From Acidobacteriota bacterium (GTDB lineage Bacteria; Acidobacteriota; Terriglobia; Bryobacterales; Bryobacteraceae), in contig JACTMJ010000018.1 of NCBI GenBank assembly GCA_014584705.1, forward strand, positions 1 through 64,000: a DNA stretch of 64,000 bases, given 5' to 3'. Shown here in pieces: positions 4,179-12,953 of the stretch. The notes under the pieces are model-generated. The model was not told the origin of the DNA, did no database searches, and worked only from the letters and a program-made list of their open reading frames with translations. Numbering within the stretch: the first letter of the stretch is position 1; each line of letters opens with the position of its first letter. The position numbers and the translations under genes are program-made.

Positions 4179-4592
4179 GAGCGCTGGAAGGGCGGCTGCT
4201 CCCTCTGCCTTCGTTCAGTCGCGAATGGTACTTTCCCACGCGACCCACCCGGTTTTCAGGGCCGAACCAAGGTTAGAAAGTGTTGCATCTATCGAGTTAG
4301 AAGAATCAATAAATCCCTTCACGAAACAGCCGCTTCCGCCCCTTCGTTCGCTCTGAAAAGCCTCATTTTCCGTGCTATTTTCCAGGAAAGAGAACAGTTA
4401 CGGTGAGTTTTGTTCTCGTTTTTATCGGGAGGATCCTCAAGGAAGAGGGAATTTGGATCTAGTACCTTCAAAACGTATAGTACCGTTTAACATTTTGTGG
4501 CATAACTAGAGAGACGGGAGGCGAGGGCACTCCCGATTCCTCCGGCGGAAGCGGAACCGGAAGCGGGTCCGCGAAGCTCAAGGGAGATATCC
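4179..4592 (+). other. intergenic stretch and leader of the kinase gene
   Basis: There is no gene. It is AT-richer than the surroundings. It holds a terminator candidate at 4390-4423, an imperfect direct repeat of TAGTACC around 4458-4485, and a hairpin with CGGGAG/CTCCCG arms around 4515-4536 in what is probably the leader of the gene at 4593. AAGGGAG lies about 7 bases before that gene's ATG. Confidence 0.5.
4390..4423 (+). terminator. rho-independent terminator candidate
   Basis: GAGAACA (4390-4396) pairs with TGTTCTC (4411-4417) across a 14-base loop and is followed by GTTTTTAT. The stem is AT-rich, so termination may be weak. It would end transcripts from the cupin gene. Confidence 0.45.
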
Positions 4593-7364
4593 ATGCGGAC
4601 TTATCGAATCCATTTCCTGGCTTTCCTGGCACTCACACTCGGATCGATCACGGCACCTTTCCTCTTCGCTCAGGTCGGCGATGAGAGTGTCGCGCAACGC
4701 GTCGGCGTTCCCGTGGAAGGAGGCTACACCGAAACGACGGCACGGTGGCTCCCGACGGTGCGCTATCTGGAGAGCGAGGTTCGCGGAATCCGCTTCACCC
4801 TGACGCCCGTTCCCGCGGATAAACTGCTGGTGAGCGTGCAACGGGGTGAAGTGGAGTTCGCGATTGTTCCGCCCGCCCGCTTTCCCGCCCTCGCGATGCA
4901 CAGCAATGCGTCCGCCATCGCTTCGGCGGCGATCGAAGGAACCGGCGGAGAGGTTGTGTCGTTAACGAAGGGTTCGCTGCTTGCTCTCAAGGACCGGACG
5001 GATCTCACGAGCATTGCCTCGGCGAAAGGGAAGCGGGTGCTCGCCTTGGGAGCGGACTCGCTCATGGGTTGGATTGCGCCCTCGGCGAGGCTTCGCGCCG
5101 CCGGAATCGATCCGGATACGGACCTGCCCGATCTGCATTTCGCGAACGATGCCAAGTCGATCTTTGACGCATTGAATTCCGGAGTGGTCGATGTGGCCTC
5201 CATCGGGAACGCGGATCTGATCGCCGCCGCGCGCAGTGGAAAGATCCAACTCTCAAACTTCCGGGTGCTGCAAGAGAGCACCAGTATTCCGATGGACGCG
5301 AAGGCGGAGCAGGGTAGCACGCCTGCCTATCCCCTGGAAGCCTTTGTGAAGACATCCGCCGCCTCCGACAAACTCGCGCAGCGTGTGGCCGATGCGCTCT
5401 ACCGAATGAACTCCTCGAACGGGGCGGGCAAGTCTGCCATGCAATCCGCCGGCAATTTCGGCTGGACCGTTCCTCAAAACTACTCGGCCGTGGAGGCGGA
5501 TTTGCGTGCCGCGGGGTTGGACCCGGCGCTTGCCGATGGAAGCACGGCACCGAAAGAGAATCTGCTGAACTCGAAATACTGGCCCATTGGCATGGGGATC
5601 CTGATTGCGATCATCGCCTCAACTTCCGCCGTGCTGCTCTACCGGCGAATGCGGGCGCGGGTGAAGAGCACGGAAGAAACGCTCGACGCCGCGAAGCAGG
5701 ATCTGGCGCAATCCCAGCAGGCGCTGGCCCGCTCGGGAGAGATTCGCGCGAGCCTGCTCTCGAATTTCCGCCAGGACTTCCGTACGCCGCTTTCCGCGTT
5801 GCTCGAAATCTCCCGGCTGTTGCGCACCACGCAACTGAGTTCCGCGCAGGCCGAGTACGTAAACGCGATTCGTGAGATGGCGCACAACCTGATGGGGAGC
5901 ATCGGCAATGTTACGGATTTCGCGAGCCTCGAAGCGGGCGCCCTTCACACGGAAAAGCGGGACTTCGACCTGATGGAAGTGGTGGATAACGCCGTTCTCA
6001 ACGTCTACGAACAAATGGGCGAGCACTACGCCGAACTTTCCGTGCAAGCCGATACGCAGGTGCATCGCTGGCTGAACGGAGACGCGGTGCGGCTGCGGCA
6101 GGTGCTGCAAAACCTCCTGCACAATGCGATGAAGTTCACGCGCTCCGGCGATGTGCTGCTGCACATCAGCCGCGAGGACGATCAGGCGGAGAGCACGTCG
6201 GTGCGGTTCACGGTGATCGATACGGGCGTCGGGATGGATTCGAAACAGGTGAAGAAGATCTTTGAACCATACGTGGTGCAGCCAAGGGGCAAGCAGGTTT
6301 CACGCGGCCTGGGTTTGCCATTGTGTAAGCGCCTGGTGGAACTGATGGGCGGCACCATTAGCGCCGAGAGCGCCTCCGGGAAGGGTTCTCAGTTCAGTTT
6401 TGTCCTTCCGTTCCGCAAGCAGGCCCAGCCTTCCGTGATGCTCGATGACGATGTGAGCCGTATCCGCGGAAGCCGTGTGCTCTTGATCGGCGGAAGCGAG
6501 ATTGGACGGCGGATCCTGCAGTATTACCTCCATAGCTGGGGTGCGTACGTCGTGTACGCGGACCGTTTTGAAGCCTCGCTCGATGTCATGCGGGACGCGA
6601 TCGACAAGAACCAGAAGTTCGACGTCGTGCTTTGTCCCGCCTTCGTGGCGGATCGCAACGCGGTGGAACTCGTGGCTACGGTCCGCGACCGCCCGGAACT
6701 GGATGGAATTCCATTCGTCGTCATCGCCTCCCGGCAGGAATGCGAAGCGCTGCCGCAGTTGGAGCAGTTGGCCGGACTCATCCGCATTGAACGCCCGGTG
6801 CGGCGTGGCGATCTGGTGCTCAAGATGTCGGAGGCGCTTCGCATGGAAGTGCCGGACCGGCTCTGGAAAGATCCTTCCGACTACGATCGCGAAGAGATCT
6901 ACAAACTCGACATCGAATTCTCCGATTCGAAGATCAAGCGTGGGAGCGTACTGGTGGCGGATTCGAACTCCATTCATCAGCGCGCCGTGGCGCTCGTGCT
7001 CGACCGCATGGGCTACAACGTCGACACCGCCATCAGCGTTGCCGAGGCGACCAAGCGCCTGCAATCGACGCGCTATGACATCGCCTTCCTCGAAACCCGT
7101 CTCACTGACGGCGATACCTTCAAACTCGTGGGCGAGTTGCGCGGCCGGGAGAACAAGGCGACACGCCTCCCGATCATCGGCATGCTGGCCGAGGCGCAGG
7201 AAGGCGAGCGCGAGCACTGTCTGCTGGCCGGCATGGACGACTCCATGCTGAAACCGCTCGATATGGAAGCCATCGCGCGCACGATGCGCCGCTGGACGCG
7301 CAAGCAGCCACAGCGCCAGAACGCGACAGATGCTGGAATGCGCCATCGCGAGATGACCGCGTGA
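4593..7364 (+). CDS. degenerate hybrid sensor kinase with PhnD-like sensor and two pseudo-receivers
   Basis: The 923-residue protein has a signal peptide, a periplasmic PhnD-like substrate-binding region (about 35-290), one membrane helix (about 329-350), a coiled coil, a HisKA-like region, an HATPase domain and two receiver-like domains. The ATPase keeps its N box (QNLLHNAMKFT), DTGVGMD and RGLGLPLCK. The H box reads FRQDFRTPL, so Gln394 replaces the phospho-accepting His. In the first receiver the Asp position is Pro682 (VVLCPAF), and in the second it is Glu834 (AFLETRL). ATP binding may persist, but normal phosphotransfer through this protein looks impossible. It could act by conformation or by heterodimerising with another kinase. 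AAGGGAG about 7 bases upstream supports the start. The sulfatase gene follows after 97 bases. Confidence 0.9.
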   Translation: MRTYRIHFLAFLALTLGSITAPFLFAQVGDESVAQRVGVPVEGGYTETTARWLPTVRYLESEVRGIRFTLTPVPADKLLVSVQRGEVEFAIVPPARFPALAMHSNASAIASAAIEGTGGEVVSLTKGSLLALKDRTDLTSIASAKGKRVLALGADSLMGWIAPSARLRAAGIDPDTDLPDLHFANDAKSIFDALNSGVVDVASIGNADLIAAARSGKIQLSNFRVLQESTSIPMDAKAEQGSTPAYPLEAFVKTSAASDKLAQRVADALYRMNSSNGAGKSAMQSAGNFGWTVPQNYSAVEADLRAAGLDPALADGSTAPKENLLNSKYWPIGMGILIAIIASTSAVLLYRRMRARVKSTEETLDAAKQDLAQSQQALARSGEIRASLLSNFRQDFRTPLSALLEISRLLRTTQLSSAQAEYVNAIREMAHNLMGSIGNVTDFASLEAGALHTEKRDFDLMEVVDNAVLNVYEQMGEHYAELSVQADTQVHRWLNGDAVRLRQVLQNLLHNAMKFTRSGDVLLHISREDDQAESTSVRFTVIDTGVGMDSKQVKKIFEPYVVQPRGKQVSRGLGLPLCKRLVELMGGTISAESASGKGSQFSFVLPFRKQAQPSVMLDDDVSRIRGSRVLLIGGSEIGRRILQYYLHSWGAYVVYADRFEASLDVMRDAIDKNQKFDVVLCPAFVADRNAVELVATVRDRPELDGIPFVVIASRQECEALPQLEQLAGLIRIERPVRRGDLVLKMSEALRMEVPDRLWKDPSDYDREEIYKLDIEFSDSKIKRGSVLVADSNSIHQRAVALVLDRMGYNVDTAISVAEATKRLQSTRYDIAFLETRLTDGDTFKLVGELRGRENKATRLPIIGMLAEAQEGEREHCLLAGMDDSMLKPLDMEAIARTMRRWTRKQPQRQNATDAGMRHREMTA

Positions 7365-7461
7365 CGCGCGGCCGGCACGCAGGCAATTCGGGTTCGGCCG
7401 CCACACGGCGCAGCCTGCCGCGCTCCCCCTGCGCGGCGAGGTTGTGATACGGTTTCCGAAC

Positions 7462-9048
7462 ATGGACAAGGCACGGACAAGACGCAGTTTTCTCGGGGCA
7501 GGTGTGGCGGGATTCTCCGCCCTCGCCGCGAATTGCTCACTCAACAAGCGGGAAGCGAAGAAGGCTCCGAATATTCTGTTCGTGATTGCCGACGACTGGT
7601 CCTTTCCCCATGCCGGCGCTTACGGCGACCGTGGCGTGAGGACCCCCGCCTTCGACCGGATCGCGCGCGAGGGAGTGCTCTTCACGAATTCCTTCTGTGC
7701 CTCGCCTTCCTGCACGCCGTCCCGGAGCGCTGTTCTCAGCGGACGGCCCATTTACCAGTGCGGGGAAGCCGGTGTGCTTTATGGAAGCATCCCCACAAAC
7801 CTGCCTCTCTTTACGCATGTTCTCGAAGATGGCGGCTATTTCGTCGGCTACACGGGGAAGGGATGGGGACCGGGCGATCCTGGGGCGCTGGGGATGAAGC
7901 GGTCTCCTACGGGGAAGCCATTTCAAAGCAGGCGCCACCCCGCTGGAATCCGAGCCGGTCTCGATGCGCGCGATTACGCCGCCAACTTCGCTGACTTTCT
8001 GGCGGAGCGTCCCAAGGAAAAGCCGTTCTTTTTCTGGCTGGGCAGCACGGAACCGCACCGCGTGTATGCTCCCGGCGCGGGGCTCAGCATTGGCAAGAAG
8101 CTTCGTGATGTGAAGATGCCGGCGCAATGGCCGGACGTAGAAACCATCGAGAGCGACATTCTCGATTACTATTCCGAAGTGGAATGGCTGGACCAGCAGG
8201 TGGCCAAAGCGCTCGATGCTTTGGAGAAGACCGGGGAGCTTGAGGACACCGTTGTGGTGATGACCAGCGACAACGGCATGCCGTTTCCGCGGGCGAAGGT
8301 GAACCTCTACGACGCGGGAACGCACATGCCGCTGGCAATTCGCTGGGGAAAGCGAGCGCCGGGCGGCCGGGTAGTGGATGATTTCGTGAGTCACACGGAT
8401 TTTGCCGCTACTTTTCTGGACGTGGCGGGATTGTCCCCGCTTCCGGGGTCCAACGGGAGGAGCCTGCTGCCGCTGCTGACGTCCTCGAAGAGCGGCAGCA
8501 TCGATCCCAAACGGGAGCACGTGGTGACCGCGCTCGAGCGGCACACGATGTGCCGGCCGGATGGAGCTACCTACCCGATGCGGGCCTTGCGAACCGCCGA
8601 CTTCCTCTATATCCGGAATTTTGAGCCGGATCGCTGGCCTACCGGCGGACCCGATTTCATCTCTTCCAACAAGAGGACGCACGGCGATGTGGATGCCTCG
8701 CCCACCAAGGATTTCTTCCTCGATCCGGTGAACCAGGAGCAGTACCGGACCCTATATGAGTTGGGGTTTGGCAAGCGGCCCGCCGAGGAACTCTACGATG
8801 TGCGGAACGATCCTGATCAGGTGAAGAACCTGGCGGGGAGCCCGGCATCCGTGGCAACGCTCAGCCGGTATCGGGACCACCTTGAGACGATCCTGCGCGG
8901 AGACGGAGATCCTCGGATTGAGGGGAAGGACCCGTGGCAAGCGTATGTGTACCACCAGACCACGGGGTACGGCGCCAGCATGAACCGGTCGCTCACGTCG
9001 GAAGAGCGCGAGAAGGCGGCGGGGGCAGGGCCGCATAAGCCGGAGTAG
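7462..9048 (+). CDS. exported arylsulfatase (heparan N-sulfatase-like)
   Basis: This is a member of the alkaline phosphatase/sulfatase superfamily. The N-terminus has a twin-arginine-like RRSFLGAGVAG followed by LAANC, so it may be a Tat-exported lipoprotein. NILFVIADD supplies metal ligands. CTPSR holds the Cys (residue 84 from this ATG) that is converted to formylglycine, and TSDNG supplies the second metal cluster. The closest match by eye is the SGSH/heparan N-sulfatase type. It would remove sulfate from a sulfated glycan outside the cytoplasm. An in-frame GTG at 7444 is an alternative start; neither start has a well-placed ribosome site. It lies between two sensor kinases, and a sialidase-like gene is 8 kb away. 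Confidence 0.9.
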   Translation: MDKARTRRSFLGAGVAGFSALAANCSLNKREAKKAPNILFVIADDWSFPHAGAYGDRGVRTPAFDRIAREGVLFTNSFCASPSCTPSRSAVLSGRPIYQCGEAGVLYGSIPTNLPLFTHVLEDGGYFVGYTGKGWGPGDPGALGMKRSPTGKPFQSRRHPAGIRAGLDARDYAANFADFLAERPKEKPFFFWLGSTEPHRVYAPGAGLSIGKKLRDVKMPAQWPDVETIESDILDYYSEVEWLDQQVAKALDALEKTGELEDTVVVMTSDNGMPFPRAKVNLYDAGTHMPLAIRWGKRAPGGRVVDDFVSHTDFAATFLDVAGLSPLPGSNGRSLLPLLTSSKSGSIDPKREHVVTALERHTMCRPDGATYPMRALRTADFLYIRNFEPDRWPTGGPDFISSNKRTHGDVDASPTKDFFLDPVNQEQYRTLYELGFGKRPAEELYDVRNDPDQVKNLAGSPASVATLSRYRDHLETILRGDGDPRIEGKDPWQAYVYHQTTGYGASMNRSLTSEEREKAAGAGPHKPE

Positions 9049-9182: not shown

Positions 9183-12100
9183 ATGGACTCTAAGGCGAAA
9201 TCCCGATCGGCGAGGCGGGCGCTGACACTGGGGCTGCTCGTGCTGTGCCTGGCGGCATGGACGCTGGCCTCCAGCGGACGGTATAGCTTTCGCATCTATG
9301 AGAACCCGGATGGGCTCAAGGATCTGGTGATCCGGGACCTGCTGCGGGATCGCGCGGGCTTTCTCTGGATCGCCACGCATACCGGGCTCTACCGTTTCGA
9401 CGGACGGGAATTTCGCCACTACACCACGAGGGACGGGCTGGCGGACAACTGGATTACCAATCTGGCGGAGAACGCGGATGGCGGGCTGTGGGCGGTAACG
9501 CTGAAGGGCCTTTGTCGCCGCGCGGGCAACCGGTTTGAGACGGTGCTGGCGGAGCGCCCGTGGCTCCGGTTTCGCCCCAATACGGGTACGCCGCTGGCGG
9601 CGGACAAAGAGGGGAACCTGTTCTTTTCCACGAACGATGGGCTCTTCGCGGTCTGGCGGCACACCGCCGGCGATGCAGCCCCGATGGCTCCGCCGGTGCG
9701 CTTTGAGCGGCTTGGCGAAACGGACGGCGAATTCAGCACCACGAGCGGGCTGTTCGTGGACCGGGAGGGAGCGGTTTGGTATACCGCGCCGGGAGGCGTT
9801 CTGGTGAGGCGGTTGGCGCGGGACGGCCGCCGAGTGGAGGTGGATTCGTCGCTGCCGCCGGAGGTCTGGGTCTCCGTGCTTGAGGACCGCAAGGGCGGCA
9901 TATGGCTGGCTGGCGTTTCCGGGAGTGTGTATGCCAGACCGCCGGGGAGCCGGCGGTTTCGCAGAATGCCGGTGGTGTTTAGCGGCCGGGGAAGGATGTC
10001 GGTGACGCGCGGGAACGAGATTCTTATTCCCGCGTCGTCGGGTTTCTCCGTCGTGGAGGGCTATGGCGCCAAGGCGGAGAAGATCGAAGCGGCCAGCGGC
10101 CTTCCCGGAGAGGTCATCGAGTGTTTCCTTGAGGACGATGACGGCGCGCTGTGGATCGGCTCCGTAGGGACGGGACTGATTCGCTGGATGGGCGGGCGGG
10201 CGTGGCGCCAGTGGAGGCTCGGCGACGGATTGCCGGGGAATTTTGTCACCCAGATTTCCAGAGCGCCGGATGGAACGGAATGGGTGAGCACGCTGAAAGG
10301 GCTGGTGAAATTTGCACCGCCGGAAGGGGAAGGCGACGGGCCGCCGTTGCCTGGGGACGGAAAGGGGCGACTCTGGCTGACGCCCCGCCAAGTCCCGTTG
10401 CGTTCCGATTTGGGGAAGACGCCGGCGGTGTATGCCGTGGGTGCCGGGCTCCAGGGAGAGGTCTGGCTATCCCTGACGCCCGGGAGCGTGCATGTGCTCG
10501 AGCCGGGCACGGGCAAGCTCGCGCAATACGGGGCGGCGAGGGGATTTCTCTTAGGAATTGTTTGCCAGTATCTGGCGCATGACGGCGCGGTGTGGATTGC
10601 CCATACCAAGGGGCTTGGCCGGGTACGGGAATCGGATGGAAAGCGCGTCTACGAACGAATCTGGCCCTCGGACGGCGAGGCGAACGTCTATCGTCTGGGC
10701 ACCGATTCGAAAGGCGCGATCTGGGCCGCCACCTCGCGTGGATTACTGCGCGTCGATTCACAAGGAATGCGCCTATTCGACAGGCGAAACGGCTTGCAAC
10801 AGGATGACGTATTCGGGCTGAGCGTCGCGCTGGACGACTCGATATGGATTCACTACCGCCTTTCCCTGGGGGTTTCTCATGTGATGACGGACGCGCCGGA
10901 ACTCCGCGTCCGGCATTACCGGGAAGCGCAGGGACTTGCTTCCGACAAAGTGCTTTCGATCGCCACCGATGCGAAACGGCGGGTATGGGTGGGCACGGAG
11001 TTTGGCCTCAGCGTCCTCAACGGAGACCCGCCATGGATCACTTTCAACCGGGATCATGGTCTGGTCTGGGACGATTGCAGTTTCGCGGCGCTGGAGGCGG
11101 ACCCGGACGGCGCGATCTGGGTTGGCACCAGCCGGGGCCTATCCCGCTTCGAAGCGCCGGATCGGATCGCTCGGGCCGTTCCGCCCGTCGCCTTCACCGC
11201 GTTGCGCTCCGGAGGAGTGCTGGAGGAAGCGGTGACGCCCGGCGTGCGGGTGAAGACTTCGGAGGAGTTGCGCATCTCTTACGCGGCGCTGCGTTTCTCC
11301 AACCAGAGCGCGATTCGCTTTCGCTATCGCCTCGTCGAAGATGGCGCGGCCGGCAGCGCGGGGTGGGTCGCCACGCGGGACCGTGAAGTGAATTTTGCGC
11401 GGCTCAGCCCCGGCCTTCACCGGTTTGAGGTGGAGGCTAGCGAAGGGGGCGGGCTTTGGTCGCAGGCCTCGGCCATCGAGATTCTCGTCCCCACCCCGTG
11501 GTGGCGGCAGTGGTGGGCGATCGGCCTGATGATCTGGGCGGTTTTGGCGCTGCTGCGCGTAATGTGGAAGTGGCGCTACCGCCGGATGATTCACAGGCAG
11601 AATCAGCTCGAAAGCGCGGTGGGCGAGCGCACGCGGGAACTTGAAGTGCAGCGGGAGCGCGCGGAGGCGGCGAGCCGGTTCAAGGACCAGATTCTGGCCA
11701 ATGTCTCCCACGAGATCCGAACGCCGTTGAACGGAATCGTGGGCTTCGCCAGCCTGATGCTTGAATCCAAGTTGGACGACGATCAGCGGGACCAGTTGCG
11801 AACGGTTTACGCGTCCGGCAAATCCCTGGTGGATATCATCGAGGACCTGCTGGATTTCGCATCCATTGAGGCCGGAGATCTGAAGTTCGAGGAGACCGCG
11901 ATCTCGCTTACCGAAGTTGTGGACCAGACGACGCGCACCTTGCGGTATGAGGCGGACCGGCAGGGTCTCGAATTTCACAGCCACTGCGCGCAGGATATTC
12001 CCGCGCTTCTCTTGGGGGATGGCCACCGAGTGCGCCAGATCCTCCTGAATCTGCTCGGGAACGCGATCAAGTTTACGGAGGCGGGCTCGGTGGAGTTGCG

Positions 12101-12953
12101 GGTACGGTGCGCGCGAACGCCCGGCGATGCGGCTACCTTCCCGACGCTTGGGGAGGGAGAGCCGGAGCGGGTTTGGATTGAATTTGAAGTGAGCGACACC
12201 GGCATTGGCATCTCCGCGGCGCATCTGGAGCAAGTTTTTGACCCATTCCGGCAGTTGGACGGAAGCTCACGACGCGTCTACGGAGGAACCGGACTCGGCC
12301 TTGCCACGGTTCGGCGCATCGTGGATGGAATGGGCGGGCGGATTCGTGTTGCGAGCGAACCGGGCCGGGGATCCACATTTTGCGTGGAGGTGCCACTGAA
12401 GATTCCCTCAGCCAGCCCGGAGGAGCCGCTCGCCGTTACCCAGACGGCGCCGAAGAGCGACGTTCCCGCCATTCGGCGCGTACTGATTGCGGAGGACAAC
12501 CCGGTGAACCAGAAACTGCTCCACCGGATTCTGGCTAAGCGCGGCCTTGAAATGGTTACGGTCGCCGACGGAAAAGCCGCCACCGACGCAGTAGCGAGCG
12601 AGCCATTCGATCTCATCCTGATGGACATCCAGATGCCGGTAATGGACGGCATTCAGGCCACCCGCCTAATTCGGGAGCGCGAGCGGGAATCCGGCTCGCG
12701 GCGGATTCCGGTGATCGCCGTTACGGCGAATGGCATGTTCCAGTGCCGCGAGGAATGCGCCGCGGTGGGAATGGACGGATATGTGGTGAAGCCATTCGGA
12801 CCCGCGAACCTGTTCGACGCGATTGACAATGTGCATCGAAGAATCGCCGACGCCACCGGCATTTCCGAAACGGAGACCACGATCTCCGCGGAGATCTCCG
12901 CGGAGCGCCGAACCGCGAATGGGGAAGCAGGGCGGGGCCCTCGGTGCAATTGA
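9183..12953 (+). CDS. hybrid two-component sensor with Reg_prop propeller
   Basis: The 1256-residue protein has an N-terminal signal anchor, a long periplasmic series of two-component-regulator propeller repeats (about 35-690, with units such as GLYRFDG and WIGSVGTGLIRW), a Y_Y_Y-like domain (about 700-770), a membrane helix (about 778-798), HisKA, HATPase and one receiver. The phospho-acceptor His843 is intact in VSHEIRTPLNG. The ATPase has DTGIGIS and GTGLGLATV. The receiver keeps Asp1148 in LMDIQMPVMDG. Unlike the Bacteroides HTCS proteins it ends after the receiver with no AraC domain, so it should pass phosphate to a separate regulator. Such sensors usually detect glycan fragments, in keeping with the sulfatase just upstream. 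Confidence 0.92.
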   Translation: MDSKAKSRSARRALTLGLLVLCLAAWTLASSGRYSFRIYENPDGLKDLVIRDLLRDRAGFLWIATHTGLYRFDGREFRHYTTRDGLADNWITNLAENADGGLWAVTLKGLCRRAGNRFETVLAERPWLRFRPNTGTPLAADKEGNLFFSTNDGLFAVWRHTAGDAAPMAPPVRFERLGETDGEFSTTSGLFVDREGAVWYTAPGGVLVRRLARDGRRVEVDSSLPPEVWVSVLEDRKGGIWLAGVSGSVYARPPGSRRFRRMPVVFSGRGRMSVTRGNEILIPASSGFSVVEGYGAKAEKIEAASGLPGEVIECFLEDDDGALWIGSVGTGLIRWMGGRAWRQWRLGDGLPGNFVTQISRAPDGTEWVSTLKGLVKFAPPEGEGDGPPLPGDGKGRLWLTPRQVPLRSDLGKTPAVYAVGAGLQGEVWLSLTPGSVHVLEPGTGKLAQYGAARGFLLGIVCQYLAHDGAVWIAHTKGLGRVRESDGKRVYERIWPSDGEANVYRLGTDSKGAIWAATSRGLLRVDSQGMRLFDRRNGLQQDDVFGLSVALDDSIWIHYRLSLGVSHVMTDAPELRVRHYREAQGLASDKVLSIATDAKRRVWVGTEFGLSVLNGDPPWITFNRDHGLVWDDCSFAALEADPDGAIWVGTSRGLSRFEAPDRIARAVPPVAFTALRSGGVLEEAVTPGVRVKTSEELRISYAALRFSNQSAIRFRYRLVEDGAAGSAGWVATRDREVNFARLSPGLHRFEVEASEGGGLWSQASAIEILVPTPWWRQWWAIGLMIWAVLALLRVMWKWRYRRMIHRQNQLESAVGERTRELEVQRERAEAASRFKDQILANVSHEIRTPLNGIVGFASLMLESKLDDDQRDQLRTVYASGKSLVDIIEDLLDFASIEAGDLKFEETAISLTEVVDQTTRTLRYEADRQGLEFHSHCAQDIPALLLGDGHRVRQILLNLLGNAIKFTEAGSVELRVRCARTPGDAATFPTLGEGEPERVWIEFEVSDTGIGISAAHLEQVFDPFRQLDGSSRRVYGGTGLGLATVRRIVDGMGGRIRVASEPGRGSTFCVEVPLKIPSASPEEPLAVTQTAPKSDVPAIRRVLIAEDNPVNQKLLHRILAKRGLEMVTVADGKAATDAVASEPFDLILMDIQMPVMDGIQATRLIRERERESGSRRIPVIAVTANGMFQCREECAAVGMDGYVVKPFGPANLFDAIDNVHRRIADATGISETETTISAEISAERRTANGEAGRGPRCN

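Follow-up and report, generated by a model that had tools for sequence, protein, structure and literature searches.

A PhnD-like sensor protein of one Bryobacterales genus that lacks the phospho-accepting residues of a hybrid histidine kinase

What can a hybrid histidine kinase do when the residues that should carry the phosphate are gone? The question is raised by an open reading frame in the window, the 64,000-nucleotide stretch of Bryobacteraceae DNA analysed here. The frame (4593-7364, + strand) encodes 923 aa without internal stops and is closely preceded by AAGGGAGAT, a good Shine-Dalgarno sequence by eye; its features are collected in Table 1. A preliminary description had pointed to an intact reading frame with Gln at position 394, Pro at 682 and Glu at 834, and all of this is borne out by the translation. 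Pfam recognises the HisKA domain above its cut-off although the His is replaced by Gln394, which makes the product a pseudo-histidine kinase. Receiver 1 has degenerated beyond recognition by Pfam (E = 0.056) and is modelled by AlphaFold2, from an alignment of 27 sequences, as a (beta-alpha)5 fold with pLDDT of ~82-93. No Hpt domain was found in the protein with Pfam.

Table 1. Features of the pseudo-hybrid histidine kinase gene, in positions of the window.
Feature	Position	Strand	Details and basis
Pseudo-hybrid histidine kinase gene	4593..7364	+	923 aa; Pfam domains, orthologues
Shine-Dalgarno-like AAGGGAGAT 5' of ATG	4580..4588	+	Sequence read by eye
Likely signal peptide / first membrane anchor, residues 1-26	4593..4670	+	Translation, by eye
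PhnD-like periplasmic sensor domain (PF12974), residues 47-291	4731..5465	+	Pfam E = 1.1e-25
Probable membrane helix, residues ~330-350	5580..5642	+	Hydrophobic stretch, by eye
Pseudo-DHp (HisKA), residues 384-450	5742..5942	+	Pfam HisKA 386-449; conservation
CAG = Gln394 at phospho-accepting His position	5772..5774	+	His in 22/22 relatives
Thr398 = H+4 residue, retained	5784..5786	+	Alignment with relatives; role from CrdS (PMC3510030)
His431, DHp helix 2	5883..5885	+	Alignment: genus-invariant, usually Glu/Asp in relatives
CA (ATP-binding) domain, residues 496-611, N and G1 boxes kept	6078..6425	+	Pfam HATPase_c 496-608
Shortened ATP lid (11 aa vs 14) and altered G2 box	6273..6305	+	Alignment with relatives
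Pseudo-receiver 1, residues 631-745 (GG633/634, P682, A712, R734)	6483..6827	+	AF2 fold, columns, conservation
Conserved inter-receiver linker, residues 746-783 (VPDRLWKDPSDYD...)	6828..6941	+	28/38 invariant
Receiver 2, residues 784-900; S791, E834, L865, K887	6942..7292	+	Pfam (786-896), columns
GAA = Glu834 at acceptor Asp position	7092..7094	+	Asp in G001, G002

Orthologues were found in all five sampled species of one Bryobacterales genus, and the relatives in public records are Bryobacterales MAGs. Identity to the window protein (genome G000) is 91-92% in G003 and G004 and 60-66% in G001 and G002; in G002 the gene is broken between two contigs and lacks residues 516-556, and its N-terminal part is 51% identical to the window protein. 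Among 399 genomes searched at class level and 396 at phylum level, the only other full-length match was a protein of G807, a genome of a different class within the phylum; it is 28% identical over residues 35-903 and has the same domain order. The G807 protein keeps the H-box His, complete receivers and a full-length lid, and adds a C-terminal Hpt domain. This protein (G807:C80, L072) was the only active one with the PhnD-sensor/two-receiver order in the genomes sampled, and judged by its sequence it may be the active form of the architecture, either as a true orthologue or through parallel assembly. When 200 genomes of the family were searched with the sensor only, one more relative was obtained, a PAS-containing kinase in G327 with a normal His. 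The kinases matched in the window's own genome kept the His in every case with a readable H-box. Two same-genome hybrid kinases in which the His is kept, G000:C31:44078 (L006) and G000:C13:28742 (L008), appear by eye to have a periplasmic sensor of the amino-acid-binding type and a degenerate first receiver.

In the orthologues from the five species, Gln394 and Pro682 show no variation wherever the column is readable. The change from His to Gln394, being common to all five, is thus not a private mutation, and sequencing or assembly error was rejected because the independent genomes of four more species also carry Q394 and P682. An alignment artefact was rejected as well, since the flanking R-T-P and K/R-P motifs and other anchors align unambiguously with 22 relatives. 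No alternative alignment puts a His at the acceptor position, the nearest His of the DHp being His431 in the second helix. All 22 active relatives have His at 394, both receiver-2 residues and a 14-residue lid.

The preliminary description had counted three losses, of which those at 394 and 682 are genus-wide. At position 834, G000, G003 and G004 have Glu but G001 and G002 have Asp, so this is not a third shared loss. The tree divides the genus into the same two subclades and 22/22 outside relatives have Asp in the column, which makes D834E derived and recent. In another respect the count of three was too low. Receiver 1 has, in all five species, G633/G634 for the Asp-Asp pair, A712 for Thr and R734 for Lys, and with this Lys to Arg change as the fifth it lacks all five of its active-site residues. 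Receiver 2 has, again in all five species, S791 for the metal-binding second acid and L865 for Thr, and both domains are thus pseudo-receivers; G001 and G002 keep both the Asp and the Lys of receiver 2. Loss of D682 alone is unremarkable, as the receiver-1 Asp is also missing in 2/22 relatives and pseudo-receivers are said to be widespread at this location (PMC7010744). The ATP-binding boxes, previously given as intact, are so only in part: the N-box Asn and the DxGxG (G1) box are retained, but the lid has 11 residues throughout the genus against 14 in 22/22 relatives, and the G2 box GTGLGL has become SRGLGL in the window protein and GRGLGL in the sister subclade.

The gene is under strong purifying selection. 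Its dN/dS, by NG86 only, is ~0.05 overall; close species give 0.05-0.06, and the G000-G003 comparison over the full gene gives 0.06. The pseudo-DHp is identical at 67/67 positions between G000 and G003/G004, where dS is about 1 or above and near saturation, and 54/67 positions are invariant across the genus. Ordered by invariant fraction, the domains are DHp (0.81), linker (0.74), pseudo-receiver 1 (0.70), CA (0.62), receiver 2 (0.56) and sensor (0.36). High DHp conservation was rejected as proof in itself, the active kinase encoded at 9183 being equally conserved there (98.6% identical, G000 vs G003). Between G001 and G002 the pseudo-kinase orthologues are 91% identical in the DHp, 92% in the CA (partial), 91% in pseudo-receiver 1, 84% in the linker and 83% in receiver 2, whereas an active double-receiver hybrid kinase used as control gave 93, 76, 60, 24 and 71%, respectively. 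The difference is 105/115 vs 69/115 identical positions in pseudo-receiver 1 (Fisher p 3e-8) and 32/38 vs 9/38 in the linker (Fisher p 2e-7), a contrast based on one control protein, hence a small sample, with overall rates that vary between proteins. As identity in pseudo-receiver 1 and the linker exceeds that of the control, the pseudo parts do not drift, and the inter-receiver region has the look of a functional surface. These data agree with the earlier prediction that selection keeps a non-phosphorylating protein: the changes at 394 and 682 are fixed, dN/dS is low, and the pseudo-DHp, pseudo-receiver 1 and linker are the most conserved parts. Neither orthologues with the normal residues at 394 and 682 nor signs of a recent pseudogene were seen.

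The kinase at 9183-12953, a Reg_prop (propeller) hybrid kinase, had been named as first candidate for a partner. Its orthologues occur in 5/5 genomes but adjoin the pseudo-kinase gene only in the window's subclade, the two being on separate contigs in G001 and G002. At 27% identity, its DHp is no closer to that of the pseudo-kinase than are those of other kinases of the genome, and the 9183 kinase is a partner candidate without specific support. Between G000 and G003 its CA is only 67% identical, as compared with 98.6% for HisKA and 93% for the receiver. A same-genome paralogue with matching DHp as an obvious heterodimer partner was also looked for and rejected, the best being only 39%. No gene neighbour was conserved across the genus in the five genomes compared. 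Downstream lie a sulfatase and the 9183 kinase in G000, G003 and G004, an oxidoreductase and another sulfatase in G001, and a Dus gene in G002. G001 and G003 each have a divergent MFS gene, which was rejected as a shared neighbour, the two not being close homologues. The sulfatase directly 3' of the pseudo-kinase gene (7444-9048) carries a Tat-like signal (TRRSFLGAG, by eye), and the different sulfatase of G001 is two genes downstream of the orthologue. About 9 kb from the G001 orthologue is a CAP12/Pycsar-type TIR domain protein (L057:2850-4730), a possible anti-phage effector.

The closest solved structures to the model were ShkA (6qrj), followed by GacS, RetS and DivL. The sensor-to-kinase arrangement resembles that of the tetrathionate sensor kinase TtrS, and the NCBIfam TtrS model spans residues 38-594, but the score of 130.6 bits falls short of the 750-bit cut-off and the protein is not TtrS. 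The genuine TtrS is an active kinase and is not known to have receivers. RetS and GacS share the fold of the kinase region; RetS retains its His and has a sensor of another type. RetS offers a precedent as a hybrid kinase reported to block GacS autophosphorylation (PMC4866733). RcsD is described with a pseudo-histidine kinase domain within a phosphorelay (PMC3762810) and differs by a working Hpt domain, which the window protein does not have. DivL of Caulobacter, found among both the structural and the sequence matches, is likewise a HisKA-HATPase scaffold without the His that is conserved across species, and it is a precedent for a kinase-dead histidine kinase that works via a partner (PMC4211667). 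It differs in having Tyr and not Gln, PAS sensors and not a PhnD-like one, no receivers, and the known partners DivK and CckA. A ChrS variant is a further kinase-dead histidine kinase working through a partner (PMC9491836). With ShkA, the best structural match, the window protein shares the DHp-CA-pseudo-REC1-REC2 order, a degenerate first receiver and a conserved inter-receiver linker. The linker of ShkA carries the DDR lock, and its pseudo-receiver and linker motif keep the kinase inactive in the absence of bound c-di-GMP (PMC7010744). ShkA is however an active kinase with the His and the receiver-2 Asp kept, where the window protein has Q394 and E834.

Because the phosphate-carrying residues are lost and yet selection is strong in five species, signalling by binding and change of shape is probable, and the ShkA, DivL and ChrS-variant precedents favour an allosteric receptor. 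With some reservation, we therefore regard the protein as probably a pseudo-hybrid histidine kinase that senses a ligand and exerts allosteric control over another two-component protein. Its periplasmic PhnD-like domain would bind a small ligand and gate the protein; the only solved sequence match of the sensor, the phosphite-binding protein HtxB, is weak and suggests a small anion. Ligand binding would most likely alter the conformation of the DHp-CA-pseudo-receiver unit, and this cytoplasmic kinase/receiver scaffold, predicted not to autophosphorylate, would neither make nor pass phosphate. The pseudo-DHp and/or the surface of pseudo-receiver 1 and linker would bind a real kinase or response regulator, and the bound two-component partner would be turned up or down.

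The protein may still have some enzymatic activity, because it retains Thr398, the residue on which phosphatase activity depends in HisKA proteins. The main rival, which we think unlikely but give real weight, builds on this residue and makes the protein a ligand-gated dedicated phosphatase, kinase-minus and phosphatase-plus, which would dephosphorylate a response regulator charged by another kinase; Thr398 of the DHp would do the work and the CA domain would be a nucleotide-sensing regulator. This H+4 Thr is present in every orthologue with a readable column, and the DHp is the most conserved domain. CrdS offers a parallel, since its H371A mutant keeps most of the activity (partner half-life 2.6 min vs 0.7 for wild type and 53.5 alone) and its H+4 mutant loses it (PMC3510030). 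The H+4 Thr is however also found in 22/22 active relatives, and as it is universal there its retention is weak evidence that does not discriminate. A phosphatase alone would also leave the strong conservation of pseudo-receiver 1 and linker unexplained, a survey argues against phosphatase activity as the general role of His-less kinases (PMC12632262), and DivL is without such activity (PMC4211667).

It appears improbable that the protein is still a phosphoprotein, either through His431 as alternative acceptor or through an Asp-bearing receiver 2 phosphorylated by another protein. Within the DHp, His431 is the only candidate alternative acceptor. The genus has it without exception, in a column occupied by Glu or Asp in relatives, and it would stand roughly level with the lost His, as estimated by residue counting and not from coordinates; we know of no firm precedent for a His-to-His relocation. 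A non-conserved His has been proposed for RcsD (PMC3762810), and receiver 2 of G001 and G002 has its Asp and Lys. Against this, the short lid and altered G2 box do not suit normal ATP phosphotransfer, and receiver 2 is without the second acid and Thr even where the Asp remains. There is still less to recommend the phosphomimicry proposed earlier for Glu834, by which receiver 2 of the window's subclade would be held in an active-like state. The Glu is fixed at the acceptor position in three species and is itself the support for this reading, but the sister species have Asp, and the replacements S791 and L865, present in all five species, predate it, so that the usual phosphorylation switch is missing. 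Simple decay, a former hybrid kinase dropping catalytic residues through neglect, would account for the many catalytic positions gone and for D834E as a further loss within one subclade; with the frame intact in every genome with a complete gene, dN/dS of ~0.05 and pseudo-domains that exceed active kinases in conservation, we find it hardly credible.

For the allosteric receptor, a history can be proposed tentatively. A phosphorelay receptor may have been converted stepwise into a non-phosphorylating allosteric receptor with pseudo-receiver 1 and linker as output surface, and an intermediate stage may be kept within the genus, where the receiver-2 Asp is present in some species and lost in others; taken together, these two proposals are plausible, though we would not call them probable.

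The His is missing in about 0.9% of HisKA domains and the Asp in 2% of receivers, and His-less HisKA proteins are already a recognised class (PMC12632262). Few cases of either are understood. What is new here, as read from the sequences, is that a single protein under selection, equipped with a PhnD-like sensor, has lost the His, some of its ATP lid and the sites of both receivers, with the last loss step apparently in progress among sister species. The active relative and the sister species at different stages of loss make up a natural series for the function of a phosphate-free two-component scaffold, and single out pseudo-receiver 1 and the linker as the region that matters.
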